IMG/VR virus record: IMGVR_UViG_3300025671_000319
Span: 1-30,798 of that record
From: a virus
Reading direction: 5' to 3' (one strand)
DNA: 30,798 nt
In this document: one piece after another, positions 514 to 22,080 of the stretch
How the letters are laid out: each line of letters begins with the position of its first letter
How positions within the stretch are numbered: position 1 is the stretch's first letter
Notes under the pieces: model-generated
What the model was told of the DNA's origin: nothing
What the model saw: only the letters and a program-made list of their open reading frames with translations
The model's database searches: none
Position numbers and translations under genes: made by a program

Positions 514-2925
514 ATGCCATTAAATTTAGCATCTCCTGGGATTGTAGTAAAGGAAGTTGATTTAACTATTGGAAGAGTTACTCCTTCTTCAGCTAGAATC
601 GGAGCTATTGTAGCACCTTTTGCAAAGGGACCAGTAGACGTACCAATACTGGTAGAGAACGAGAATGGTTTACTTAAGAATTTTGGGCAACCATATGCCA
701 CAGATAAGCACTATGAGAACTGGTTAGTTGCTTCTTCTTATCTCTCTTATGGCGGATCACTTAGAGTTGTAAGAGCAAACGACTCCCAATTAAAAAATGC
801 TTTTATAGGAACTGCATCAAGCGTTAAGATTGATAGTTTAGACAACTACAATTCTTTAGGGTATGATGAAAATACTTTAAGTAATGTTGTTTTTGCTGCC
901 AGAAACCCCGGTACTTGGGCAAACGGGGCAAGAGTTGCAATTATTGACTCAAAAGCAGATCAAATTCTGACAGGAATTAATACATCTGGAGTTGTTAACT
1001 TTGTTGCTGCTATCTCTAACAGAAGTGGTACTTTAGTTGGCAGTGCTACAACAATCGGCATTTCGACCGCATCGGTAACATTGGGGCAAATTGTAAGATG
1101 TGATGTTGCTGGAGTTGTTGCTGCAGGCACTACAGTTACTTCAATTGCAGTGGGAGATGTAGTTGGTATTTCAACTGCATCACTATCTTCTGTTGATATT
1201 ACTACTACGTTTGACTTCGGTTCCAACTCAGTAGTCAGCGATCCACTGGTTGTTGGATATGGAGTCACACAGGCAATATCTTCCACTCTTCCTGGTCCTG
1301 GTACAACTAGCACTCTTGATGGTCACTTAAAGGGTATTATTACTGAAATTGGCGCATCTTCTGTAGGCGTAAAAGTTCTTTCTCATGTATCCTCAGCAGG
1401 AACTGTAACGGACGTAGATTATCAACCATCCGGAGTTTATGCATTTGCTGGATCGGGAGACGTTTCAATTACTAAAAATAATGAAATAACTTCTTATGGT
1501 TCTACTTCTTACACCGCAAGACAAGATTGGTTCGATCAACAAACAGTTGGTTTAACCACCACATCAAGTGTTAATTGGAATACTCTTGCACCAAGACCTG
1601 GAACTTCTGCCTATGCAGCAGCAAGAAATTCAAGATTTGATGAAGTTCACGTTGTTGTTATTGACTCTCTTGGAACTATCAGTGGAAATGCAGGAACTAT
1701 TCTTGAGAAGCATTTAAGTCTTTCGAAGGCAAAAGATGCAGAGTTCTCTGTAGGAAGTCCATCTTACTGGAGAAGTTTTCTTGCAAATAACTCAGAATAT
1801 GTCTTTGGTTTAGGTTCTCCCGCAAACACTGTAGAGACAGGTTATAGTTCTAATTTTGCACTTGTCTCGAATGGTGGTTGGGATAGAGATGCAGAAGGTA
1901 CTATTTTTAATGCTGCAGGTTCTTCAACTGATGACCTAACAGGAGGAACAAATTATGGAGGAAAAACTGACTTAACTAAATCTGGTGCTCTGACAGCAAG
2001 TATTGGAGAACTTTCCGATGGTTATGACTTGTTTGAGTCTACAGATAACTATAAAGCAGACTTCTTGCTTATGGGATCTGCCTCCAAGGCTAAGGTAGAT
2101 ACTCAGGCACTTGCAAATAAAGTTATTTCTGTCGCTGAACTGAGAAAGGATGCTGTTGCTTTTGTATCTCCAAGTAGAGATTCTATCATGAGCGACACCA
2201 CAACACAAGGTGATACAACAGTTTATAGTGCATCAGATATTACTAATAAATTAATTGAATTCTATGCTTCCGTGTCTTCATCTTCTTATGCGATATTTGA
2301 TAGTGGTTATAAGTACATGTATGATCGCTTCTCAAATACTTTCAGATATGTTCCGCTAAATGGAGATATTGCAGGTATTTGTGCTCGTACTGATATTAAT
2401 AACTTCCCTTGGTATTCTCCAGCAGGAACATCAAGAGGTTCTATCTTAAACGCGGTAAAACTTGCGTACAATCCAACAAAAGCACAAAGAGATCGTCTGT
2501 ATTCAAATAGAATCAACCCAGTTGTATTCTCTCCTGGTGCAGGTATTGTTCTCTTTGGAGATAAAACTGGACTTGCTAAGGCATCGGCATTTGACCGCAT
2601 TAACGTCCGTCGCTTGTTCATCTATCTTGAGAATGCTATTTCTGCTGCTGCGAAAGATCAACTCTTTGAGTTCAACGATGAAATTACAAGAACAAACTTT
2701 GTAAATGTTGTTGAACCATTCTTACGTGATGTTCAGTCAAATAGAGGTATTCAAGATTATGTTGTTATTTGCGATGAAACAAATAACACTGCTGCGGTGA
2801 TAGATAATAATGAGTTTGTGGCAGATATCTTTATCAAACCCGCAAGATCAATTAACTTCATTGGTCTGACCTTTGTTGCCACCAAGACTGGTGTTGATTT
2901 TGAAGAAGTAATCGGTAACTTTTAA
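514..2925 (+). CDS. gp18: Contractile tail sheath protein gp18
   Basis: This is the contractile sheath subunit that surrounds the tail tube and drives injection. The N terminus (PGIVVKEVDLT, then GAIVAPFAKGPVDVP) and the C terminus (RSINFIGLTFVATKTGVDFEEVIG) are typical of myovirus sheath proteins. So is the sequence NPVVFSPGAGIVLFGDKT followed by INVRRLFIYLENAI. At 803 residues it is longer than T4 gp18 (659). The extra length probably lies in the exposed middle part, where residues about 170-230 are low-complexity Ala/Val/Thr/Ser and contain GISTAS twice. It is followed 22 bases later by the tail tube gene, the standard T4-like order. Confidence 0.96.
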   Translation: MPLNLASPGIVVKEVDLTIGRVTPSSARIGAIVAPFAKGPVDVPILVENENGLLKNFGQPYATDKHYENWLVASSYLSYGGSLRVVRANDSQLKNAFIGTASSVKIDSLDNYNSLGYDENTLSNVVFAARNPGTWANGARVAIIDSKADQILTGINTSGVVNFVAAISNRSGTLVGSATTIGISTASVTLGQIVRCDVAGVVAAGTTVTSIAVGDVVGISTASLSSVDITTTFDFGSNSVVSDPLVVGYGVTQAISSTLPGPGTTSTLDGHLKGIITEIGASSVGVKVLSHVSSAGTVTDVDYQPSGVYAFAGSGDVSITKNNEITSYGSTSYTARQDWFDQQTVGLTTTSSVNWNTLAPRPGTSAYAAARNSRFDEVHVVVIDSLGTISGNAGTILEKHLSLSKAKDAEFSVGSPSYWRSFLANNSEYVFGLGSPANTVETGYSSNFALVSNGGWDRDAEGTIFNAAGSSTDDLTGGTNYGGKTDLTKSGALTASIGELSDGYDLFESTDNYKADFLLMGSASKAKVDTQALANKVISVAELRKDAVAFVSPSRDSIMSDTTTQGDTTVYSASDITNKLIEFYASVSSSSYAIFDSGYKYMYDRFSNTFRYVPLNGDIAGICARTDINNFPWYSPAGTSRGSILNAVKLAYNPTKAQRDRLYSNRINPVVFSPGAGIVLFGDKTGLAKASAFDRINVRRLFIYLENAISAAAKDQLFEFNDEITRTNFVNVVEPFLRDVQSNRGIQDYVVICDETNNTAAVIDNNEFVADIFIKPARSINFIGLTFVATKTGVDFEEVIGNF

Positions 2926-2947: not shown

Positions 2948-3538
2948 ATGGCAACCAGAAACCAAATTAATAACATTCCCTTGAGGAAAATTACCGACTT
3001 CAAGAGTAAGTTGTCGGGCGGTGGTACAAGAAGTAATCTTTTTGAAGTTGAACTTGCTTTTCCAACAGCAGTTGGTATTGATGCGGTAACCTTAGATAAG
3101 ACAAGATTTCTTGTAAAATCAGCAGCACTTCCTGCTTCAAATATCACACCATTGGAAGTAGCATTTAGAGGAAGAACTCTAAAACTTGCTGGCGATAGAA
3201 CATTTGAAACATGGACAATTACTGTCATTAATGATGTCGATTTCTCTATTCGTTCATCATTTGAAAAATGGGCAAACTACATCAATCGTTTGTCTGATAG
3301 CACTGGATCTACCGATCCTGCAACATATCAGGCAGATGCTTTTGTCCATCAGTTAAATCGTGATGGAACTATTTTGAGATCATATCATTTCTATGATATT
3401 TTCCCAACAAATATTTCAACAATCAATCTCTCTTACGATAGCGAAGCAATTGAAGAATTTACTGTTGAGATGCAAATTCACTGGTGGGAAGCAATTAAGG
3501 GAACTTCTCCGGCAGCTGGCGGAGAAGATATCAACTAA
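2948..3538 (+). CDS. gp19: Tail tube protein gp19
   Basis: This is the tail tube subunit, which stacks in hexameric rings inside the sheath. It has 196 residues against 163 in T4. The family pattern is seen in SNLFEVELAFP near residues 29-39, in FLVKSAALPASNITPLEVAFRGR, and in the late FYDIFPTNISTINLSYDSEAIEEFTVEMQ part, where the final strand ends with the usual W. It lies directly after the sheath and before the portal gene. It was placed by this signature and by gene order. Confidence 0.95.
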   Translation: MATRNQINNIPLRKITDFKSKLSGGGTRSNLFEVELAFPTAVGIDAVTLDKTRFLVKSAALPASNITPLEVAFRGRTLKLAGDRTFETWTITVINDVDFSIRSSFEKWANYINRLSDSTGSTDPATYQADAFVHQLNRDGTILRSYHFYDIFPTNISTINLSYDSEAIEEFTVEMQIHWWEAIKGTSPAAGGEDIN

Positions 3539-5691: not shown

Positions 5692-6345
5692 ATGAAACTC
5701 ATCACAGAAGAAGTATCAAACGTAAAAATTATTACCGAAGGCAAGGGTGCCAGTAAGAAATTATACATTGAGGGTGTTTTCCTTCAAGGTGATCTCAAAA
5801 ACCGTAACGGTAGAATGTATCCAATGGAGACACTTTCCCGTGAGGTAAATCGTTATTGCGAAACCTTTGTAAATAAGGGACGTGCTCTGGGAGAACTTGG
5901 TCATCCCGATGGACCCACCGTAAATCTGGATCGTGTTTCTCACAAAATTACTTCACTCGTTCGAGAGGGAACTAATTTTAGAGGTAAGGCACAAATTCTT
6001 AATACTCCTATGGGTAAGATTGCATCTTCCCTTTTGGATGAAGGTGTAATGCTCGGAGTTTCTTCTCGTGGTGTTGGATCTTTGAGAGAAGATCATCGCA
6101 GTGGTTGTAAAGTTGTCGGCGAAGATTTCCAATTGGCAACTGCTGCCGACATTGTTGCAGATCCTTCTGCTCCAGATGCTTTTGTTAATGGAATTATGGA
6201 AGGAAAAGAATGGGTTTGGGAAGGCGGTATTCTTCGCGAACAACTTGCAGAAAGAACTCAGAAGAGAATTAATACTCTCGTAGGTCAAAGACAACTTGAA
6301 GAGCATAAATTGGAATTATTCAAACAATTCCTCTTAGATTTGTAA
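5692..6345 (+). CDS. gp21: Prohead core protease gp21
   Basis: This serine protease of the prohead core cleaves scaffold and capsid proteins during head maturation, usually after LxE or IxE. It has 217 residues (T4: 212). The family signatures are present: NRNGRMYP near residue 38, the His motif LGELGHPDGP (His71), and the Ser motif LGVSSRGVGS (Ser124/Ser125). An acidic ADIVADPSAPDAFVNGIMEG segment follows. It sits between the gp67-like gene and the scaffold gene as in T4. Likely substrates in this window are gp22, gp23 and perhaps the internal-protein candidate at 10202. Confidence 0.95.
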   Translation: MKLITEEVSNVKIITEGKGASKKLYIEGVFLQGDLKNRNGRMYPMETLSREVNRYCETFVNKGRALGELGHPDGPTVNLDRVSHKITSLVREGTNFRGKAQILNTPMGKIASSLLDEGVMLGVSSRGVGSLREDHRSGCKVVGEDFQLATAADIVADPSAPDAFVNGIMEGKEWVWEGGILREQLAERTQKRINTLVGQRQLEEHKLELFKQFLLDL

Positions 6346-6387: not shown

Positions 6388-7476
6388 ATGTCCGTTGGTA
6401 GCAATTTACAAGAAATGGAAAACGTAGTAACCAAAGGGGCAGCACCTGCCGAACAAATTAAATCTGATGCTTCCAGAGTTTCTACTCCTGGTCAAGCTCA
6501 GGTTGAAGATTTGGGTGGTCCTACTCCAGAAAATTATAGATCTGATGATGATTCAGCTAAATTGAGAGATCCCGCAAAAACTGTTGCTCAGGTTAAGGAT
6601 GTAGTTAATGCTAAGGCTGTAGCTGCAGAATCTGCTGAGGAAGAAGAGGGAGAATTTGTTTCTGAAGAGGAAACTACCGAAGAGGAATATGTTTCCGAAG
6701 AAGAAACTACCGAAGAGGAAGTTGTTGAAGAGGAAGTAGAAGAAGAATTTAATATCGATGAAGATGTTGAGGCACTTCTTCAAGGAGAAGAGCTTTCTGA
6801 AGAGTTCCAAGAAAAAGCAAAAATTATTTTCGAATCTGCAATTCGTTCTAAAGTTGCAGAAGTTAAGGAACAACTTCAAGATGCATACGAAGATGCACTT
6901 GTAGAAGAAATTAATACTATTAAAGAAAGTCTTGTAGAGCGTGTTGATTCTTATCTTGAGTATGTTGCTGATGAATGGATTTCTGACAATCAACTCGCAG
7001 TTGAGCACGGTCTTAAGACTGAAATGACAGAATCATTCCTGGTAGGAATGAAGCAACTTTTTGAAGATCATTATGTAACAATCCCTGAAGAAAAATATGA
7101 TGTAATCGAGAGCATGGTAGATAAACTTGATGAAATGGAAGGAAAACTCAACGAGCAAATTCAAAGAAATGTTGCTCTAAATCAAAGATTAGCAGAGTCA
7201 GTTGCTGATGTAATTTTTGCAGATGTCGCTGAGGGTCTTGCACTTTCTCAGAAGGACAAACTCGCTTCTCTTGCTGAAAATGTTGAGTTTGATAGTGAAC
7301 AGAGCTATCGTGAGAAACTGGTAACCTTGAGAGAATCATATTTTCCAACAAATACCAGTGCTCAAAGAAACTCTAGTGAAAATTTATCAGAAGAAACTGA
7401 TTACTCGATTGAGGATTCAGTAAGTAGCACCATGGGTGCATATCTCAATACTCTTCATAGAGTTTCCAAAAAGTGA
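6388..7476 (+). CDS. gp22: Prohead scaffolding core protein gp22
   Basis: This is the main scaffold of the prohead core, later digested by gp21. It is 362 residues (T4: 269) and mostly predicted helix. The longer N-terminal half carries a very acidic low-complexity block near residues 80-120 with repeated SEEETTEEE units. The C-terminal half (from about residue 125) has the gp22-like order of Glu/Ala-rich coiled segments, including LVERVDSYLEYVADEWISDN and LAESVADVIFADVAEGLALS with KDKLASLAENVEF. It lies directly between the protease and the major capsid gene. Several LxE sites could be gp21 targets. Confidence 0.93.
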   Translation: MSVGSNLQEMENVVTKGAAPAEQIKSDASRVSTPGQAQVEDLGGPTPENYRSDDDSAKLRDPAKTVAQVKDVVNAKAVAAESAEEEEGEFVSEEETTEEEYVSEEETTEEEVVEEEVEEEFNIDEDVEALLQGEELSEEFQEKAKIIFESAIRSKVAEVKEQLQDAYEDALVEEINTIKESLVERVDSYLEYVADEWISDNQLAVEHGLKTEMTESFLVGMKQLFEDHYVTIPEEKYDVIESMVDKLDEMEGKLNEQIQRNVALNQRLAESVADVIFADVAEGLALSQKDKLASLAENVEFDSEQSYREKLVTLRESYFPTNTSAQRNSSENLSEETDYSIEDSVSSTMGAYLNTLHRVSKK

Positions 7477-8997: not shown

Positions 8998-9546
8998 ATG
9001 GCAACCGCTTTTGATAAGCAGATAAGTAATAGAAATTTTTTGTCTCCAATAGGATTTAAGTTTAATCTTGCCAAATATCCTAAAGTATCATTTTTTTGCA
9101 ATTCTGCCCGAATTCCTGAAATTACCTTAACGACTTTAAATCAGGCATCATACTTAAAAAATATTGATATTCCTGGAGGAATTGTTCAGTATGGCGACTT
9201 ATCTTTAAAATTTTTAGTTGATGAAAATCTTGTAAATTATTCGACCATTCATAATTGGATTACTGGTTTGGGTTTTCCAGAATCCACGCAAGATTATGCC
9301 GATTTTATTACTAATTCTGATGGGATAAAAGATCCAAATGAATCATTTAGTGATGCAAGTCTTCATATTTTGAATAGCAATTATAATACTGTTGCAATCA
9401 TTAAATTTAAAGATCTATATCCAACATCATTAACTTCTTTAGACTTTGCAGCAACAGATACTGATATTAATTACTTTACAGCAGAGGTTACTTTCAAGTA
9501 TACTGTATATAATATACTAGCATCTGACAACAGAACACCCTTATGA
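8998..9546 (+). CDS. gp3: Tail completion and sheath stabiliser protein gp3
   Basis: gp3 caps the head-proximal end of the tail tube in T4. This protein is 182 residues (T4 gp3: 176) and lies between gp23 and uvsY, where cyanophages carry gp3. It shares the tube-protein fold, with FKFNLAKYPKVSFFCNSARIP near residue 20, IPGGIVQYGDLSLKFLVDE near 55-75, and a final beta-rich FTAEVTFKYTVYNI. The tube-like look could suggest a second gp19, but size and gene order favour gp3. Its stop overlaps the uvsY start (ATGA). Confidence 0.82.
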   Translation: MATAFDKQISNRNFLSPIGFKFNLAKYPKVSFFCNSARIPEITLTTLNQASYLKNIDIPGGIVQYGDLSLKFLVDENLVNYSTIHNWITGLGFPESTQDYADFITNSDGIKDPNESFSDASLHILNSNYNTVAIIKFKDLYPTSLTSLDFAATDTDINYFTAEVTFKYTVYNILASDNRTPL

Positions 9547-9974
9547 ATCTTGAACAAATTCAGGAGATGTGGGAGAGAGATTCTTTCATAGATCCAGATA
9601 ACTTACATGATGAATCACTTAAAATACCTCAACTTCACTCTAAATACTATACCATATACAATACGATTACTCTTTTAAGAGAAAAGGCAAGAGAGTCTTT
9701 TAATCGTGTGAGGTTAGAAAGATATAATTATTATGCAGGTAAAGCACCTGCTGAAGTGTATGAAGAAAATCCATTTCCCTACAAGATAAGAGAAAAAGAT
9801 GTACTTCAACGCTATCTTGATGCTGATGAAAGATTAACAGCAGTAGATTTAAAAATTAAATATTACGATACCATGTTAAAGTTTCTTGAAGAGATTATTA
9901 AGACTATCTCTAATAGAACTTTTCAAATTAAAAATGCAATCGAGTGGCACAGATTTCAAGCAGGGTTTAACTAA
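9543..9974 (+). CDS. uvsY: Recombination mediator UvsY
   Basis: UvsY loads the UvsX recombinase onto single-stranded DNA coated with gp32. The protein is 143 residues (T4: 137) and mainly helical. Conserved features are the N-terminal IQEMWERDSFID, IPQLHSKYYTIYN, the helix LERYNYYAGKAPAEVY, and the C-terminal ISNRTFQIKNAIEWHRFQAG. It overlaps gp3 by 4 bases and the next small gene by 1 base. UvsX is not in the window, but UvsW, gp46 and gp47 follow nearby. Confidence 0.94.
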   Translation: MNLEQIQEMWERDSFIDPDNLHDESLKIPQLHSKYYTIYNTITLLREKARESFNRVRLERYNYYAGKAPAEVYEENPFPYKIREKDVLQRYLDADERLTAVDLKIKYYDTMLKFLEEIIKTISNRTFQIKNAIEWHRFQAGFN

Positions 9975-10168
9975 TGGATGAAGAATCCAAGTTTATAATG
10001 GATTTTGGTATAGAAGATATTCATCTTTTATACCATTGTGTATGTAAAAGAATAGAAACCTGGGAGGGATATCCTTCCAGGCATCCATTTGAGCAAGAAC
10101 ACTTACATTATCTTAAAACTGAACTGTATAAAGCAGTTTTAGATTTCAAGTTTAATTGTGGTGAATAA
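9974..10168 (+). CDS. Small hypothetical protein (64 aa) after uvsY
   Basis: I do not recognise this protein. It is 64 residues, mixed in charge, with one long predicted helix region (IEDIHLLYHCVCKRIETW) and a second helix at the C terminus. Two Cys are close together but there is no clear metal-site pattern. Its start overlaps the uvsY stop (TAATG), so it is translated from the same message. A late promoter motif overlaps its own stop codon. Confidence 0.7.
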   Translation: MDEESKFIMDFGIEDIHLLYHCVCKRIETWEGYPSRHPFEQEHLHYLKTELYKAVLDFKFNCGE

Positions 10169-10174
10169 TAAATA
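10167..10174 (+). promoter_or_regulatory. Late promoter (AATAAATA) before the 739-aa gene
   Basis: AATAAATA starts inside the upstream stop codon and lies 27 bases before the ATG at 10202. Late timing would fit a virion protein. Confidence 0.55.
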
Positions 10175-10201: not shown

Positions 10202-12421
10202 ATGAAGTCTTTCGGAGATTTTATATTTGAATGTTATAGATATGGTTTCCTTTTATTTGAGGGAAAATATAGTGATGAACATGCATTCAGAAAAGTATGG
10301 AATCACTTTATTACTCATAGAAAATACGGCAGAGAAATAAGAGATCTTATTAATGCTGGAAAATATGATGATGCTAGACAAGCAATGGAGAAAGAAATTG
10401 ATGCTGCTAGACAAGATCCTAAACATCCATTAAGTTTTGCAAAGGCAAAACGGGGATTTGAAAAGGGAAAAGATACTAATGCAAGTCAAAGTCAATCAAC
10501 ATACTATGACGAATTGAAATTGGCACCAGATAGTGTTGTAGCATATACAAAAGGAAGAAGAGGAAAATCTGCTGCTAATAGATCAACTGCTTATGCTAAA
10601 GTTGAAGGTGGAGCAACTCCACCCACTACAAGAATGTGGAAAGATGTAGTTGGAAAAGAAGCAGATACATCAAAAAGAGATATTTCTATCGCAGACACAA
10701 AAGATAAAAAATTTGGACAAGGAATTAGTTTAAAGCAGGGAGAAGGATCACAAACTCTATCTGCCGAACCAGAAGAAGTTAGAGGATTATTCAAAGCTGC
10801 TGCTAAAAAATATATTCAAAAACTGAAAAAAGATGGTGCCTCAAAGGAAGAAATTAAAAAATTTGAGGCAGACTTAGAATCTAATATATCAAAATATGTT
10901 AGAGCACAGAATTTAAAAATTAGTCCAACAGAAAATAAAGAAAAGAGTGAGAAAAGATTATCAATTGCTCAATCTGCAGTTGATGCTCTTGTTAAAAATT
11001 ATCCCGGATTTGATAGATTAGTTGATAAAGAAGCTGCTGGTGGTGAACAAAAATTCGGGAAAGAAGTTTCTGCTCAGTTAGATCCAGAAAGTCAAGAATT
11101 TAAAGATGCATTAACTGCAATGAGACTTTTGAGGGGTAAAGGAAGTCCAAATGATAAAATTGATAAGTCAGATTTGGAAGTAGGTGAACTTGGAGCAATT
11201 AAAAAAATTGCCGATAGTAAAAAATATAAAAATAATCCAAAACAACTTAAGATAGATTATATGGGTATGGATAGAGATGATCCAAAAAGAAAAGAATATG
11301 AAAAAGCTTATAAACTATTGACAAAAAGAATTGATGTAAGTGATTTAAAAAAGGGACAAAGAGAACGAATTGAAGGTATTCTTTCAAAGTATCCAACTAT
11401 GAAATCTCTCTCAGATTTCCTTAAGTCTTCCCCATCTGGGCAGGCAACTGAAGTTGTTAGGGGAACTTATGTAGATCCTAAGACGGGTGAAGTTGTTAGT
11501 AGAGCAAAATCTGAACCAGTATCTCAAAGGGCAGATCTGGACCAACCTCTTACTCCTAGATCTGGAAAGGGTAAAAGTAGCAAAACAGAGGATGGATACC
11601 GTGCATCTGAAATGAGACGTAGAGGAGAAGAACCACAAAGGATACAAAGATCTGGTGCTTTAGCAGGAAGAGTTGGGCCAGCAAAACCTGATGCAGATAA
11701 ACCAGATAATCAAGCACAACCACAACAAGGACCAATGACCTTGGATACGTTTAATAGACAAGCAAGAACTGCCGAATTGAGATCAAAAGGAGTTGGTAGG
11801 GAAAGAGATGAAAGGTTAGCAGCAGAAAGAGAGGCAGTAAAACAAGAAAGGATAGAGAGGCAGGCAGCAGAAAGACGGGCAAGATATGCTGCACGAAAGG
11901 CGCAACAAACACAACAAGCATTCTTTGATACTGAAAGAGATCTAGAAGTAGCAAGTGTAAATGCGCAAAATGCATCTATTCCCATAAATCCAGAAACTGG
12001 AGAACCAATATTAAGGCAGCATAGAAAAAATGTAGAGGTTCATATTGCAACGGATCCCACTTCTCCTATTGCACAAGCAAACAATCAAATAAGACAACAA
12101 GCACAGAATACTTTGGCAACAGCTCAAAGTAATTATGATACTGCATCATCAAAACATCAGCGAAGTTTGCAGCGTTTGCAACAAATTAAAAAATCTGCAA
12201 GAACTCAACAACCTCAACAAGCACAACAAGCACAACAACCACAACAAGCACAACAACCTCAAGAAGTTCAACCCCAACAACCACAAGAAGTTCAACCCCA
12301 ACAACCACAAGAAGTTCAGATTAAACCAAAGAAAAGAAAAAGAGAAAGAACGGAAGCAGAAAGAGCAGACACTAGACAGAGAATGGACGCTGCCGGAGAA
12401 CAGCAAGGTTATCCAAACTAA
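10202..12421 (+). CDS. Putative internal head protein with nuclease-like domain (739 aa)
   Basis: This is not a named T4 gene. The N terminus MKSFGDFIFE resembles the capsid-targeting peptides of T4 internal proteins (MK-x-Y/F-x-x-F-I-x-E), and IFE after residue 10 fits the gp21 cleavage rule. Residues about 158-190 read KRDISIADTKDK then ISLKQGEGSQTLSAE, a D...SxK arrangement (Asp160, Lys178). This resembles the PD-(D/E)xK nuclease core and similar blocks I recall in other large phage proteins. Residues about 200-400 are Lys/Glu-rich helices. The C-terminal third is a long charged coil (REAVKQERIERQAAERRARY) ending in a Gln/Pro repeat and a very basic KPKKRKRER stretch suited to binding DNA. 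It has a late promoter and sits between recombination genes. Packaging and nuclease activity are inference; the coding call is firm. Confidence 0.8.
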   Translation: MKSFGDFIFECYRYGFLLFEGKYSDEHAFRKVWNHFITHRKYGREIRDLINAGKYDDARQAMEKEIDAARQDPKHPLSFAKAKRGFEKGKDTNASQSQSTYYDELKLAPDSVVAYTKGRRGKSAANRSTAYAKVEGGATPPTTRMWKDVVGKEADTSKRDISIADTKDKKFGQGISLKQGEGSQTLSAEPEEVRGLFKAAAKKYIQKLKKDGASKEEIKKFEADLESNISKYVRAQNLKISPTENKEKSEKRLSIAQSAVDALVKNYPGFDRLVDKEAAGGEQKFGKEVSAQLDPESQEFKDALTAMRLLRGKGSPNDKIDKSDLEVGELGAIKKIADSKKYKNNPKQLKIDYMGMDRDDPKRKEYEKAYKLLTKRIDVSDLKKGQRERIEGILSKYPTMKSLSDFLKSSPSGQATEVVRGTYVDPKTGEVVSRAKSEPVSQRADLDQPLTPRSGKGKSSKTEDGYRASEMRRRGEEPQRIQRSGALAGRVGPAKPDADKPDNQAQPQQGPMTLDTFNRQARTAELRSKGVGRERDERLAAEREAVKQERIERQAAERRARYAARKAQQTQQAFFDTERDLEVASVNAQNASIPINPETGEPILRQHRKNVEVHIATDPTSPIAQANNQIRQQAQNTLATAQSNYDTASSKHQRSLQRLQQIKKSARTQQPQQAQQAQQPQQAQQPQEVQPQQPQEVQPQQPQEVQIKPKKRKRERTEAERADTRQRMDAAGEQQGYPN
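12260..12319 (+). repeat. 24-bp in-frame tandem repeat (PQEVQPQQ)
   Basis: A 24-base unit starting CAAGAAGTTCAACCCCAACA occurs twice exactly (12260-12283, 12284-12307) and a third time in part. It encodes repeated QEVQPQQP in the Gln/Pro tail of the 739-residue protein. Imperfect CAACAAGCA units precede it. The number of copies is likely to vary by slippage. Confidence 0.85.
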
Positions 12422-12456: not shown

Positions 12457-13920
12457 ATGTCTCATTTGATTATTCAAAAGAAGAACGAAGTATATTTAAC
12501 AATAAAGGCAGATCCTCACGTTTATTACGAACTTGCAGATCAGTTCACGTTTGAGGTTCCTGGTGCAAAGTTTATGCCTCAGTTTCGTAATCGACACTGG
12601 GATGGAAAAATTCGTTTATTCAATACCGAAACTAGTGAGATATATGTTGGTTTATTGGATAAAGTCGTAAGATTTTGTGAAACTCATGATTATACTTATG
12701 AGTTTGTAGACAATAAATTTTATGGACTTCCTTTTGAGACGAACAATATGATCTCTAAGGAAGGCGTTAAAGACTATATAAATGCTATCTGTAGGTATTC
12801 CCCTAGAGACTACCAAATAGAAGGGGTCTACGACGCTCTAAGACATAATAGAAGACTGCTGATATCCCCAACTGCTTCTGGAAAGTCTCTGATGATATAC
12901 TCTCTTGTGAGATATTACGTTGAGAAGCAACAAAATATTCTGATAGTTGTTCCAACGACTTCGCTTGTAGAGCAAATGTATAAAGACTTTGCAGACTATG
13001 GTTGGGATGTAGGTTCATTTTGCCACAAGATTTATGCGGGACGTGAAAGAGAGACTGATTCTCAGGTGATTATCACCACCTGGCAGTCCATCTACAAACT
13101 CCCTCGCAAGTATTTTTCAAGATTCAATGTGGTTGTTGGAGATGAAGCACACCAGTTTAAATCAAAATCTCTTATATCTATAATGTCAAAGCTTGCAGAT
13201 TGCAAGTATCGTTTTGGTTTTACCGGAACGCTTGATGGAACACAAACTCATAAGTGGGTCTTAGAAGGTCTATTTGGACCATCATATAAGATTATTAAAA
13301 CTGATGAGTTGATGAAGAAAGGGCATGTTGCTCAATTGGACATTAATGTGCTTCTACTGAAGCACCCAGCACATAGATTTGAAAATTTTGAAGAAGAAGT
13401 TCAGTATATCATAAATCATGAACGAAGAAATAAATTTATTCGAAATCTTGCTCTCGATCTTAAAGGTAATACTCTTATTCTATTCTCCAGAGTAGAAGGT
13501 CATGGTCAACCTTTATATGAAATGATAAATAGCAATAAGATTGATGATCGACATGTCTTTTTTGTTCATGGTGGAGTGGCAACAGAAGACAGAGAAAAAG
13601 TAAGAGAGATTACAGAGAAAGAGAATGATGCGATTATTGTTGCATCTTATGGAACATTCTCTACTGGCATTAACATTAAAAACTTACACAATGTTATTTT
13701 TGCTTCTCCTTCCAAGTCGAGGATTAGGAATCTCCAATCAATTGGTAGAGTTCTCAGAAAAGGAAATAACAAAACAAAAGCAACACTCTATGATATTGCT
13801 GACGACATTTCCTACAAGTCCAGGAAAAATTATACTTTAAATCATCTAATCGAAAGAATTAAAATTTATAACGAAGAAAATTTTAATTATGATATTGTAA
13901 ACATACCGCTTAAAAATTAA
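12457..13920 (+). CDS. uvsW: UvsW helicase
   Basis: UvsW is an SF2 RNA-DNA and branched-DNA helicase that removes origin R-loops and processes recombination intermediates. The protein is 487 residues (T4: 503). An N-terminal DNA-binding part comes first (FMPQFRNRHWDGKIRLFN near residues 39-56). The Q-like RDYQIEG follows, then Walker A SPTASGKS (137-144), the DEAH box (229-232), GFTGTLDG, and the C-terminal domain motifs ILFSRVEGHG and QSIGRVLRKG. The ATG at 12457 is preferred, because the nearby ATG at 12449 opens only a six-codon frame. A small Sm-like gene follows after 1 base. Confidence 0.96.
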   Translation: MSHLIIQKKNEVYLTIKADPHVYYELADQFTFEVPGAKFMPQFRNRHWDGKIRLFNTETSEIYVGLLDKVVRFCETHDYTYEFVDNKFYGLPFETNNMISKEGVKDYINAICRYSPRDYQIEGVYDALRHNRRLLISPTASGKSLMIYSLVRYYVEKQQNILIVVPTTSLVEQMYKDFADYGWDVGSFCHKIYAGRERETDSQVIITTWQSIYKLPRKYFSRFNVVVGDEAHQFKSKSLISIMSKLADCKYRFGFTGTLDGTQTHKWVLEGLFGPSYKIIKTDELMKKGHVAQLDINVLLLKHPAHRFENFEEEVQYIINHERRNKFIRNLALDLKGNTLILFSRVEGHGQPLYEMINSNKIDDRHVFFVHGGVATEDREKVREITEKENDAIIVASYGTFSTGINIKNLHNVIFASPSKSRIRNLQSIGRVLRKGNNKTKATLYDIADDISYKSRKNYTLNHLIERIKIYNEENFNYDIVNIPLKN

Positions 13921-19946: not shown

Positions 19947-19973
19947 AGAGGGTCTCACCACCCTCTTTTTTTT
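19947..19973 (+). terminator. Rho-independent terminator after the repeat protein
   Basis: AGAGGGT and ACCCTCT pair around a 6-base loop (CTCACC), followed by a T-run to 19973. Confidence 0.88.
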
Positions 19974-19974
19974 G

Positions 19975-19980
19975 TATAAT
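19975..19980 (+). promoter_or_regulatory. Sigma70-type -10 (TATAAT) for the VWA peptidase operon
   Basis: A perfect TATAAT sits one base after the terminator's T-run. No -35 is evident at the usual distance. Transcription would start near 19987, about 15 bases before the ATG at 20002. Confidence 0.55.
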
Positions 19981-20001
19981 AGGTCCATACGCAACGGATC
20001 A

Positions 20002-22080
20002 ATGGCAGTCAATCACGAAATCAAGTCTCAACTTGCCAAACTTCTTGCCACCGAAGATCTTGTGGTTGAGCACAAGAAAGTAGAGACTGCTTGTTTTAAT
20101 GTTCACACTCGCGTTCTAACGCTTCCTATGTGGGAGAAAGCGAGTTCGACTGTGTATGATATGCTTGTCGGTCATGAGGTAGGTCATGCCCTCTATACGC
20201 CTGATGAGGACTGGACAAAGCAATGCAAAGCACCTCCGCAGTTTGTGAATGTGGTAGAGGATGTTCGCATCGAAAAACTGATGAAGCGTCGTTATATGGG
20301 TCTTGCCAAGACTTTCTATAAAGGATATAAAGAACTTTCTGACCAAGACTTCTTCTGTCTTGAAGGTGAAGATCTTGAGAAGATGAATCTTGCCGATCGT
20401 ATCAATCTTCACTTCAAGATTGGAAATTTTATTAATGTTAAGTTTACGGAGATTGAAAAAGCAATAGTTCGTATGGTCGAAGGTTGTGAAGATTTTGAGG
20501 ATGTTCTTATAGCAGCAGAGGCTCTTTATAATTACTGTAAGAAACAGATTCCCAAGACTGATCAGCATCAGCAACAAGAAACTCATACTGATGAAACACA
20601 GACTGGTGAGAATGATCAACCAGATATGACAGAGAGTGATGGTCCTACCGAAGGTGGTGGAAATGTTGAGCAGAAAAAAGAAGATAACAAAGAAGCATCA
20701 AATCCAGATCCAGAAGTTGAAACCATGAAGTCCCTTGAAAAGGGTCTCAAAAACCTGGTGGATATGTTTAGTCGTGAGAGTAATTATATTGAAATTCCTA
20801 AACTTGATTTAAAAAAATGTGTTATTCCAAATTCAGAAATTCATGAGTTAATCAATAATCATTGGGATGACGCTACTCCTGATCTTGATTTATTTGGGGA
20901 TGTCGATAGCAAATATAAAGAGTTCAAACGCTCTGCTCAAAAGGAGGTGAATTATCTTGTCAAAGAATTTGAATGTCGAAAATCTGCTGATAGTTATGCT
21001 CGTGCCACTACTAGCCGTACTGGAGTCTTAGATTGCTCTAACCTTCACACTTACCGATATAACGAAGACCTGTTCAAAAAAGTAACTACCTTTGCAGATG
21101 GTAAGAATCATGGTCTTATCTTCATTCTGGATTGGTCTGGTTCAATGCAGTATGTCTTGGAAGATACTATCAAACAACTCTTTAATCTTATTTGGTTCTG
21201 TCGTAAAGTAAATATTCCTTTTGATGTTTATGCCTTTACTTCCGAATATCCTTATGTTGTTCATGATGAGAATGGTGTGGCAAATATTCGCGAACGTGCC
21301 TATGAAAAAAAGAATGGAGTAATTGCTGTTGGTGAGTGGTTTTCACTTATGAATATTCTTACCAGTAATGTCAATGCCAAGACATTGGAAGAGAGTATGC
21401 TCAATATCTATCGTATTGTTCATTCTTTTGCTCACTATTGTAATTATTCTATTCCGAGTGGTATGCATCTTTCTGGCACTCCTTTAAATGAAACACTGAT
21501 TGCTCTTCATCAAATTATTCCTCAATTTAAGAAGCAACATTCTCTTCAAAAAGTTCAGTGTGTAATTCTTACCGATGGCGAGGCAAATCCTTTGAAGTTT
21601 CATAAGGAAGTTTCTCGTTATGACAAACCTTACCTGGGTTGCATTTATGTTGGAGAAGATTGTTTCCTTCGTGATCGTAAATTGGGCACAACTTATACGC
21701 TTACTAATCGATATGATGAGTTTACGGGTGTGCTTCTTCGCAATCTTCGTGACAATTTCAAAGACACTAACTTTATTGGTATTCGTGTGCTAAATAATGG
21801 TTCTGATGCTGGAACATTCATTCGTCGCCATTGTCAAACAAGTCCAGAACTTTTGGAAAATACTATGAAAGACTGGAGAAAAGAAAAGACATTTGTACTC
21901 AAGAATGCCGGTTATCATAGCTACTTTGCCCTTTCTTCTTCTGTAATGTCAAGTTCTTCTGAATTTGATGTTGAAGAAGATGCTACCAAAACTCAAATCA
22001 AAAAAGCATTTGTCAAGAGCTTGAAGGGCAAAAAAATGAATAAAAAAATCCTTTCAGAATTTATCAATCTAGTTGTATGA
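20002..22080 (+). CDS. VWA-domain zinc metallopeptidase-like protein (CobT-like)
   Basis: The protein is 692 residues from the ATG at 20002; an in-frame TTG at 19972 overlaps the promoter and is rejected. Near the N terminus lies HEVGH (58-62), an HExxH zinc-peptidase motif, in VGHEVGHALYTPDEDW, with a later VEDVRIEKLMKRRY helix that may supply the third ligand. An acidic linker follows. A von Willebrand factor A domain then starts at DWSGSM (Asp377, Ser379, Ser381), a complete MIDAS, continuing to VILTDGEANP. This layout matches CobT-like partners of MoxR/CobS AAA+ ATPases, and such an ATPase is encoded just downstream. In cyanophages such proteins are often just called peptidase. Activity and substrate are unknown. 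Confidence 0.85.
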   Translation: MAVNHEIKSQLAKLLATEDLVVEHKKVETACFNVHTRVLTLPMWEKASSTVYDMLVGHEVGHALYTPDEDWTKQCKAPPQFVNVVEDVRIEKLMKRRYMGLAKTFYKGYKELSDQDFFCLEGEDLEKMNLADRINLHFKIGNFINVKFTEIEKAIVRMVEGCEDFEDVLIAAEALYNYCKKQIPKTDQHQQQETHTDETQTGENDQPDMTESDGPTEGGGNVEQKKEDNKEASNPDPEVETMKSLEKGLKNLVDMFSRESNYIEIPKLDLKKCVIPNSEIHELINNHWDDATPDLDLFGDVDSKYKEFKRSAQKEVNYLVKEFECRKSADSYARATTSRTGVLDCSNLHTYRYNEDLFKKVTTFADGKNHGLIFILDWSGSMQYVLEDTIKQLFNLIWFCRKVNIPFDVYAFTSEYPYVVHDENGVANIRERAYEKKNGVIAVGEWFSLMNILTSNVNAKTLEESMLNIYRIVHSFAHYCNYSIPSGMHLSGTPLNETLIALHQIIPQFKKQHSLQKVQCVILTDGEANPLKFHKEVSRYDKPYLGCIYVGEDCFLRDRKLGTTYTLTNRYDEFTGVLLRNLRDNFKDTNFIGIRVLNNGSDAGTFIRRHCQTSPELLENTMKDWRKEKTFVLKNAGYHSYFALSSSVMSSSSEFDVEEDATKTQIKKAFVKSLKGKKMNKKILSEFINLVV

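Follow-up and report, generated by a model that had tools for sequence, protein, structure and literature searches.

A candidate head-packed and injected nuclease of the PD-(D/E)xK type in marine T4-like phages

Do marine T4-like phages store a DNA-cutting enzyme in their heads and deliver it into the next cell? The question is raised by a gene in IMG/VR virus record IMGVR_UViG_3300025671_000319, analysed here over its positions 1 to 30,798 (“the window”, 30,798 nucleotides), which by gene content is a T4-like marine phage contig. The gene, starting at position 10202 and followed by uvsW, had been described in an initial annotation as encoding a capsid-packaged, co-injected nuclease-like protein. 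Our analysis supports that interpretation overall; it also moves the predicted cleavage site, widens the family and assigns the fold more closely. A head-packed, injected PD-(D/E)xK-type nuclease is in our judgement the likely reading of the locus.

The close family of the protein is small. Across 50,697 phage records searched by tblastn at an expectation value (E) of 1e-5 or below, the sole relative was CPXG_00038 of Cyanophage P-RSM6 (392 amino acids, aa; two records, one phage), which is 41% identical over residues 1-290. IMG/VR contributed identical or 71-77% identical genes, a P-RSM6-like sequence (L017), and proteins of 461 aa (L018) and 339 aa (L022), the latter two encoded between uvsY and uvsW. 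Residues 1-290 are common to all family members, and in the eight-row alignment M1, F4, F7, D160, S176-L-K178, Q184 and the motif EAxxGxxKF are invariant (8/8). Purifying selection is evident in the ratio of nonsynonymous to synonymous substitutions (dN/dS; Nei-Gojobori, window gene against four relatives), which is 0.10-0.13 over residues 21-300 and 0.42-0.58 over residues 301-739. The tail is recognisable yet fast-changing in the closer relatives, and P-RSM6 and L022 end in short, different C-termini. A long charged coil and the basic C-terminus KPKKRKRER had been thought to suit packing against DNA; the basic stretch exists, but because selection acts on the conserved part while the tail varies, and is replaced in P-RSM6 and L022, we regard both as secondary.

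Reference collections gave little to name the family by. For the window protein there was no match in Pfam at E ≤ 0.1 and nothing in PHROGs at E ≤ 0.001; scans that also took in the family returned weak Pfam matches under cut-offs (E 0.022 or worse), PHROGs values of E 0.12 or worse, and no match in PADLOC. As to several effector domains in one chain, no Pfam domain was found at E ≤ 0.1 and the tail is variable and Q-rich. Host genomes yielded 44 pattern matches and 0 relatives. Seven Gordonia phage records (E 0.2) from a short tblastn search with the motif region were judged chance; that search missed even P-RSM6.

A broader family was reached through a DNA pattern for [IV]SLKxxxGSQxxSG, which found 107 stretches in IMG/VR; these encode 85 distinct proteins, 66 of them complete open reading frames (ORFs), reduced to 46 by clustering at 85%. 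The 46 representatives form one BLAST-connected group. Conservation of S-L-K among them is built in by the search pattern; outside it, TPKTD precedes the motif in 107/107 rows and E[AS]x[TSG]GxxK[FY] follows it in 105/107, the remaining two being cut short (these counts, like those of neighbouring genes below, refer to all 107 loci). Aligned by hhalign, family and superfamily scored 98.2% (E 5.7e-14, 229 columns), compared with 0.5 and 1.2% for reversed controls and 0-0.1% for five column-shuffled ones; masking the motif block left this alignment in place at 71.6% (E 3.5e-5). BLASTP between the two groups reached 8e-8 over 168 columns in a small, motif-selected database, and a hidden Markov model (HMM) of the family, A3, found members in whole genomes with no motif preselection (Melnitz-2, E 8.1e-11; HTVC008M, E 3.3e-7). 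Among named phages, tblastn located carriers in Pelagibacter phage HTVC008M, in four Melnitz methylophages and, at a greater distance, in Microcystis phage Mel-JY01, and in each the gene is annotated as hypothetical; the HTVC008M protein is AGE60460 and that of Melnitz-2 is locus 15. Nine superfamily members gave nothing above cut-offs in Pfam; in PHROGs they matched only families without an assigned function and, weakly in one case, a tape-measure family. By these comparisons the window family appears to belong to a large undescribed superfamily present in many marine phages.

The residues that would cut DNA are conserved throughout. Residues 158-190, in which the initial annotation had seen a D...SxK arrangement resembling a PD-(D/E)xK core, do contain it (KRDISIADTKDKKFGQGISLKQGEGSQ, including D160 and S176-L-K178), and D160 and K178 are invariant in the eight close relatives and in all 54 sequences of family and superfamily together. 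The joint alignment (54/54) keeps TxKxD, SLK, SQ and the E, G and K of EAxxGxxK. As the family of the window protein itself gave a poor model, the fold is taken from a homologue, L123 (389 aa), to which superfamily members are 24-55% identical; the alignments used for structure prediction did not include the P-RSM6 protein (L001). Its AlphaFold model (46 sequences) has a predicted local distance difference test (pLDDT) score of 88.4 and a predicted template modelling score of 0.77. When 997 PDB chains were realigned to the model, the only rows above Z 5 were MspI (Z 10.4) and HinP1I (Z 9.8 and 9.3), and the next row stood at Z 4.0; Foldseek against the PDB likewise ranked MspI first (probability 0.91). 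The restriction-endonuclease-like fold once proposed, with Asp160 and Lys178 placed together, is thus borne out at the level of the homologue's model: its three top matches are restriction-endonuclease folds, and its invariant D96 and K108, with which D160 and K178 align, would lie on neighbouring strands, to judge by strand position (D96 directly before strand 97-99, K108 within strand 104-109). A nuclease fold is, on this modelling, very probable.

In a library of viral protein models the third best match was the unnamed M4SQ08 (392 aa, E 2.9e-7), which by its size could be the P-RSM6 protein itself; proteins of S-RIM50 and S-IOM18 (276 aa) match better. We also considered E192, 14 residues after K178, as a counterpart of the “migrated Glu” of Cfr10I/NgoMIV-type enzymes. 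The idea was dropped because in the P-RSM6 type the two residues are 13 apart and because the fold search led to MspI and HinP1I; that Cfr10I-type chains are missing from the fold list does not itself speak against such a reading.

A protein with this fold might be packaged and yet be catalytically silent, acting as a DNA-condensing or organising internal protein or as a restriction-enzyme decoy like T4 IPI, which is an injected restriction inhibitor (PMC3012670). The calculated isoelectric point (pI) of 9.7 for the mature form (residues 21-739, 80.8 kDa) and the Ser that replaces Asp/Glu in the SxK position would suit such a role, and a nuclease housed with its own DNA would need explaining. 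However, D160, K178 and Q184 (54/54) and E63 (53/54) are kept despite the low identity to L123, when loss of active-site residues would be expected in a dead enzyme, and MspI and HinP1I, of the same fold, are active enzymes. We therefore hold a silent protein to be unlikely; going by the modelled fold, the window protein is probably an active enzyme.

The second half of the question, whether the protein travels in the head, turns on its N-terminus. The ORF and its start were confirmed, and with them the first ten residues, likened before to the T4 internal-protein targeting peptide, the sequence letters of which are background to this comparison. Consistent with that likeness, aromatic residues stand at positions 4 and 7, as in T4-type internal head proteins, and M1, F4 and F7 are conserved in every family member; S or T occupies position 3, and after a stretch that differs in length between members comes [LIF]xE↓GKYSDE (the arrow marks the predicted cut). 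As a check on chance, the gene at 10202 is the sole ORF of at least 50 aa in the window with an early ATG that matches a loose MKxFxxF-type pattern. In IPIII of T4, positions 4 and 7 matter most for targeting and positions 8 and 10 for processing, and T4 propeptides are 10-19 residues long (PMC9026906). A hydrophobic-x-E sequence of the kind a prohead protease might cut follows the peptide (FIFE↓C; conserved LFE↓G), and a gp21 gene is present in the same phage. The initial annotation had placed the cut after residue 10. Given that IITE↓GK occurs in the window phage's own gp21 and FLYE↓A in its gp23, E20↓G21 looks the better site; it is also the one conserved in the family ([LIF]xE↓GKYS), and we consider it more likely than E10↓C11, where cleavage is possible in the window subgroup. 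For cyanophage capsid targeting, a search of the open-licence literature matched just a T4 review, an absence that carries little weight. Near uvsY, the contig of L022 also encodes (99-395) a 98-aa Gly/Asn-rich protein with the targeting-like start MKNFKDFIKE↓H.

Virion proteomes offered a way to examine such N-termini more generally. A strict rule (aromatic or Leu near position 4, aromatic near 7, then hydrophobic-x-E) fits six of the 219 coding sequences (CDS) of S-CREM2, and five of the six are in the published virion list (PMC10665884, Table 3): the SAM hydrolase gp6, the APH-like kinase gp14, the cytidylyltransferase gp154, and the hypotheticals gp13 and gp136. Among non-structural CDS this amounts to 5/28 virion proteins vs 1/167 others (Fisher p = 2.4e-4). 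Because nine S-CREM2 N-termini were known before the rule was fixed, it was then tested on the unseen S-SCSM1, where two of 282 CDS fit at their annotated starts, namely the virion NMNAT (SSCSM1_91) and the 106-aa SSCSM1_30, which is not marked virion. NMNAT-like or cytidylyltransferase proteins are listed in virions of S-CBWM1, S-SZBM1 and S-SCSM1 (PMC10665884) and of S-SM1 (PMC3037559). As a sequence-level indicator of virion enzymes the rule is promising, on a small number of cases.

Some observations adjoin this test. The Cas9-like virion nuclease gp12 of S-CREM2 (OR473000, 7704-10313, minus strand) has LRFASFMAE↓A at residues 17-25, behind a 16-residue lead, a targeting-like stretch that the rule leaves uncounted; its start codon may be misplaced. 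A segment resembling L.L.SDGHGxYxDxxGxxVAxT, with variations, follows the targeting-like peptide in three proteins: the S-SCSM1 NMNAT (L191:38819-40048), a 111-aa orf of S-SKS1 (W02, 72899-73234, minus strand) and S-CREM2 gp12 (L182:4705-7314, minus strand). A less strict form of it occurs in the S-CREM2 kinase gp14, and the segment is possibly a second module for packaging or delivery. In S-SKS1 (W02, 72.6-73.2 kb, minus strand) the stop of this 111-aa orf, which has a capsid-targeting sequence (CTS), is closely followed by an NMNAT motif in a different frame, as would be seen with a frameshifted or split NMNAT gene.

Similar N-termini recur across the nuclease superfamily. With any Met in the first 45 residues allowed, the strict rule fits 12/46 representatives vs 0/511 internal Met residues, a loose rule 29/46 vs 7/511 (it is wider than the loose rule used for S-CREM2, admitting His at position 7 and a longer gap), and the F4/F7 spacing 30/46 vs 11/511. 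The HTVC008M member starts MLSFTGYSNLSE↓A and a Melnitz member MQGFKTFLSE↓A. The surroundings of the genes are also cargo-like. An NTHLEHLE-type motif lies on the same strand at 51/107 loci and an NMNAT-type motif at 32/107, each of which occurs at most once per genome in six phage genomes. P-RSM6 encodes its nuclease near an NMNAT-like protein that has a start of its own (MITFHVFITE↓A) and is 39% identical to the S-SCSM1 virion NMNAT and 31% to the S-CREM2 virion cytidylyltransferase. The same cluster contains genes sharing segments of 25-41 residues with virion-detected proteins of S-SCSM1 and S-CREM2, and also genes with relatives not marked virion, followed by primase. In Melnitz-2 (L180:3767-8430) and HTVC008M (L179:4001-7458), adjacent gene runs, several with short hydrophobic-x-E starts, hold the nuclease, an NTHLEHLE-type protein, and an NMNAT-like protein (Melnitz) or a P-loop protein (HTVC008M); they look like a cargo operon.

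The N-terminal likeness could still be due to chance, the protein then being an ordinary late nuclease that stays within the cell for self/non-self exclusion or host DNA breakdown. The family is in no virion proteome examined, one of the two strict fits in S-SCSM1 is not labelled virion, 17/46 superfamily N-termini fall outside even the loose rule, and location is something that sequence evidence cannot show. Yet F4 and F7 are invariant in the family although the linker up to residue 20 differs between members in both length and sequence, superfamily N-termini are enriched as just described, and in S-CREM2 the rule is associated with virion-detected proteins. An intracellular enzyme appears improbable to us, and packaging in the head quite likely, as far as these sequence comparisons go.

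Timing and position of the gene bear on a further alternative. The window runs from tail sheath, tube and portal through gp21, gp22, gp23 and UvsY to the phrog_628 orf, the studied gene, UvsW and others. The late promoter motif reported 27 bases upstream of the gene is indeed there (Table 1), and TAAATA lies within 60 bases upstream of 8/22 starts examined in the window: 10202, 514 (gp18), 3569 (portal), 6388 (gp22), 8998, 12457 (uvsW), 18237 and 19154; L018 and L022 have it upstream too. Such a setting between uvsY and uvsW, with a late promoter motif, might belong to an active nuclease of head assembly or DNA packaging that trims ends or removes branches and is not injected; T4 has a packaging nuclease in gp17 (PMC9958956), and head completion nuclease or protein genes are annotated in both S-CREM2 and S-SCSM1. 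In S-SKS1, however, the best DNA match to the window among phage records, the gene order is the same except that uvsW directly follows the small orf, and the family model had no match in that genome; the studied gene is therefore an accessory insert, which this T4-like relative manages without. P-RSM6, moreover, carries the gene elsewhere than the window phage, in its cargo-like cluster. A role confined to packaging strikes us as a poor fit and improbable.

We return to the injected nuclease. Homology, a relative's fold, conservation of active-site residues, purifying selection, the conserved targeting-type peptide and the late promoter motif come from the computations themselves; packaging, cleavage, injection, cutting and target we infer, in the following steps. 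The protein would be made late in infection, and its F4/F7 peptide would take it into the core of the prohead, where the prohead protease would remove the N-terminus, most likely by cutting at E20↓G21. Once trimmed, the basic protein would remain beside the packaged DNA and be passed on to the next cell. There its conserved 280-residue part, a predicted PD-(D/E)xK-type endonuclease (E63, D160, S176-x-K178) whose nearest solved folds are MspI and HinP1I, would cut the host chromosome or a rival element before phage genes are expressed. The phage's own DNA might be spared by modification, by a lack of sites (not visible in palindrome counts) or by inactivity of the enzyme until release. T4 heads can hold targeted staphylococcal nuclease, and their DNA is digested once calcium is added (PMC3012670), which makes a resting nuclease in the head feasible. 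That the enzyme acts after injection on host or rival DNA we put at somewhat below an even chance.

Several results weigh against this reading. On the enzyme side, the Foldseek match is weak (E 6.5e-3, TM 0.26-0.35), PDB sequence searches found no relative (best E 0.01), and the model of L022 (8 sequences), with a pLDDT of 46, was not used as evidence. An HMM built on the superfamily alone (A5) gave no match to the P-RSM6 member at E ≤ 1; that protein is positive with A3, which includes its close relative L017. A second acidic residue two before the Lys is absent, with Ser176 in 54/54 sequences, so that the motif is a variant, PD-(D/E)xK-like by fold. Departures from the textbook motif, in the position of the Lys, are on record for restriction enzymes (PMC4081073), and E63 could here substitute for the missing acidic residue. 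On the packaging side, no virion proteome known to us includes the nuclease family, and both HMMs find none of its members in S-CREM2 or S-SCSM1. The N-terminal rule was written after nine S-CREM2 N-termini were already known, its loose form there gives 6/28 virion proteins vs 3/167 others, half of the strict fits in S-SCSM1 are labelled virion, and the Mel-JY01 member has no targeting-like start. The S-CREM2 authors, for their part, allow for co-purification (PMC10665884). TAAATA is not found within 60 bases upstream of 7525 (gp23), and so does not precede every late gene. Finally, of the palindromic tetramers counted, several are avoided in carriers and non-carriers alike and none indicates a target. 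P-RSM6 (L052-L061) has no CCGG, CGCG or GCGC in 192 kb (79, 42 and 64 expected), and CCGG is absent from S-SCSM1 too, which probably reflects host restriction pressure.

Among known systems, T4 IPI, IPII, IPIII and Alt come closest: they have an N-terminal targeting peptide (key positions 4 and 7 in IPIII; PMC9026906), removed by the gp21 protease, and are non-essential or semi-essential cargo (PMC9026906, PMC9958956). The late promoter motif and basic pI are further shared features. However, IPI is a restriction inhibitor and Alt an ADP-ribosyltransferase, and the parts of these sources drawn on here describe no nuclease among the four; the window protein is also larger than IPI-III (8-20 kDa), with its preferred cut at residue 20, just beyond the T4 range. 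The likeness to MspI and HinP1I, small Type II restriction enzymes of the PD-(D/E)xK kind, lies in the modelled overall fold of L123, with D and SLK in successive strands, whereas detectable sequence relation is lacking, SxK stands for D/ExK, and a targeting peptide is added. Cyanophage virion enzymes (the S-CREM2 SAM hydrolase, APH-like kinase, cytidylyltransferase and Cas9-like nuclease; the S-SCSM1 NMNAT) are similarly cargo-like: the strict rule holds for five S-CREM2 virion proteins and the S-SCSM1 NMNAT, and NMNAT-type genes often adjoin the superfamily. They differ by annotation, and were detected by mass spectrometry, whereas the nuclease family is known from genes alone. The idea of a head-packed, injected nuclease has parallels in polyvalent proteins, MuF-linked effectors, ParB-like DNases and PBECR RNases (PMC5512222, PMC9503650); those are multidomain or fused to MuF or portal domains, unlike the short cleavable peptide and restriction-enzyme-type fold proposed here.

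Most known effectors carried in phage heads come from T4 and a restricted number of other phages. An N-terminal rule that can be read from sequence and picks out virion enzymes of marine T4-like phages would, if true, turn marine “hypothetical proteins” into predicted injected effectors of abundant ocean viruses, could be checked against existing virion proteomes, and would tie in a large nuclease family that has no Pfam name. It would also explain the NMNAT-like, kinase and nuclease proteins in cyanophage virions, for which the S-CREM2 authors left co-purification versus cargo open (PMC10665884). More tentatively still, and with the odds rather against it, marine T4-like phages (cyano-, pelagi- and methylophages) may share an address system, derived from the T4 CTS or equivalent to it, that loads heads with an enzyme cocktail; the nuclease superfamily would be its main DNA weapon, cutting the DNA of host or competitor within the first minutes of infection, and NMNAT/cytidylyltransferase, kinase, SAM hydrolase and Cas9-like proteins would accompany it.

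Table 1. Positions in the window of the studied gene, its predicted elements and neighbouring genes
Feature	Position	Strand	Remarks
Studied gene	10202..12421	+	ATG start, 739 aa
T4-type late promoter-like motif AATAAATA	10167..10174	+	27 bases between motif and ATG
Capsid-targeting-like peptide MKSFGDFIFE	10202..10231	+	M1, F4, F7 invariant in family
Preferred prohead-protease site L-F-E20↓G21	10253..10264	+	conserved as [LIF]xE↓GKYS
Conserved nuclease-like part, residues 21-300	10262..11101	+	dN/dS 0.10-0.13
E63	10388..10390	+	aligned with first-helix Glu (E22 of L123); 53/54 sequences, 7/8 in family
T156-S-K-R-D160	10667..10681	+	equivalent of TPKTD; D160 (codon 10679-10681) predicted catalytic Asp
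S176-L-K178	10727..10735	+	K178 predicted catalytic Lys; SxK form of D/ExK
S183-Q184	10748..10753	+	conserved SQ motif
E277-A-A-x-G-x-x-K-F285	11030..11056	+	second motif, EAxxGxxKF
Variable charged Q-rich tail	11102..12418	+	12.5% Q; missing in P-RSM6 and L022 relatives
Tail sheath (gp18)	514-2925		start 514
Prohead protease gp21	5692..6345	+	phrog_207, E 2.6e-79; presumed processing enzyme
Prohead scaffold gp22	6388..7476	+	phrog_237; counterpart of T4 core protein
Left neighbour, function unassigned	9974..10168	+	phrog_628
Right neighbour UvsW helicase	12457..13920	+	

Two further features of the window lie outside the subject of the nuclease. An ORF of 702 aa at 19972-22080 has a TTG start and no Pfam match at E ≤ 0.1. 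Two separate genes of the phrog_45 tail-tube type, at 2948-3538 and 8998-9546, flank the head genes.

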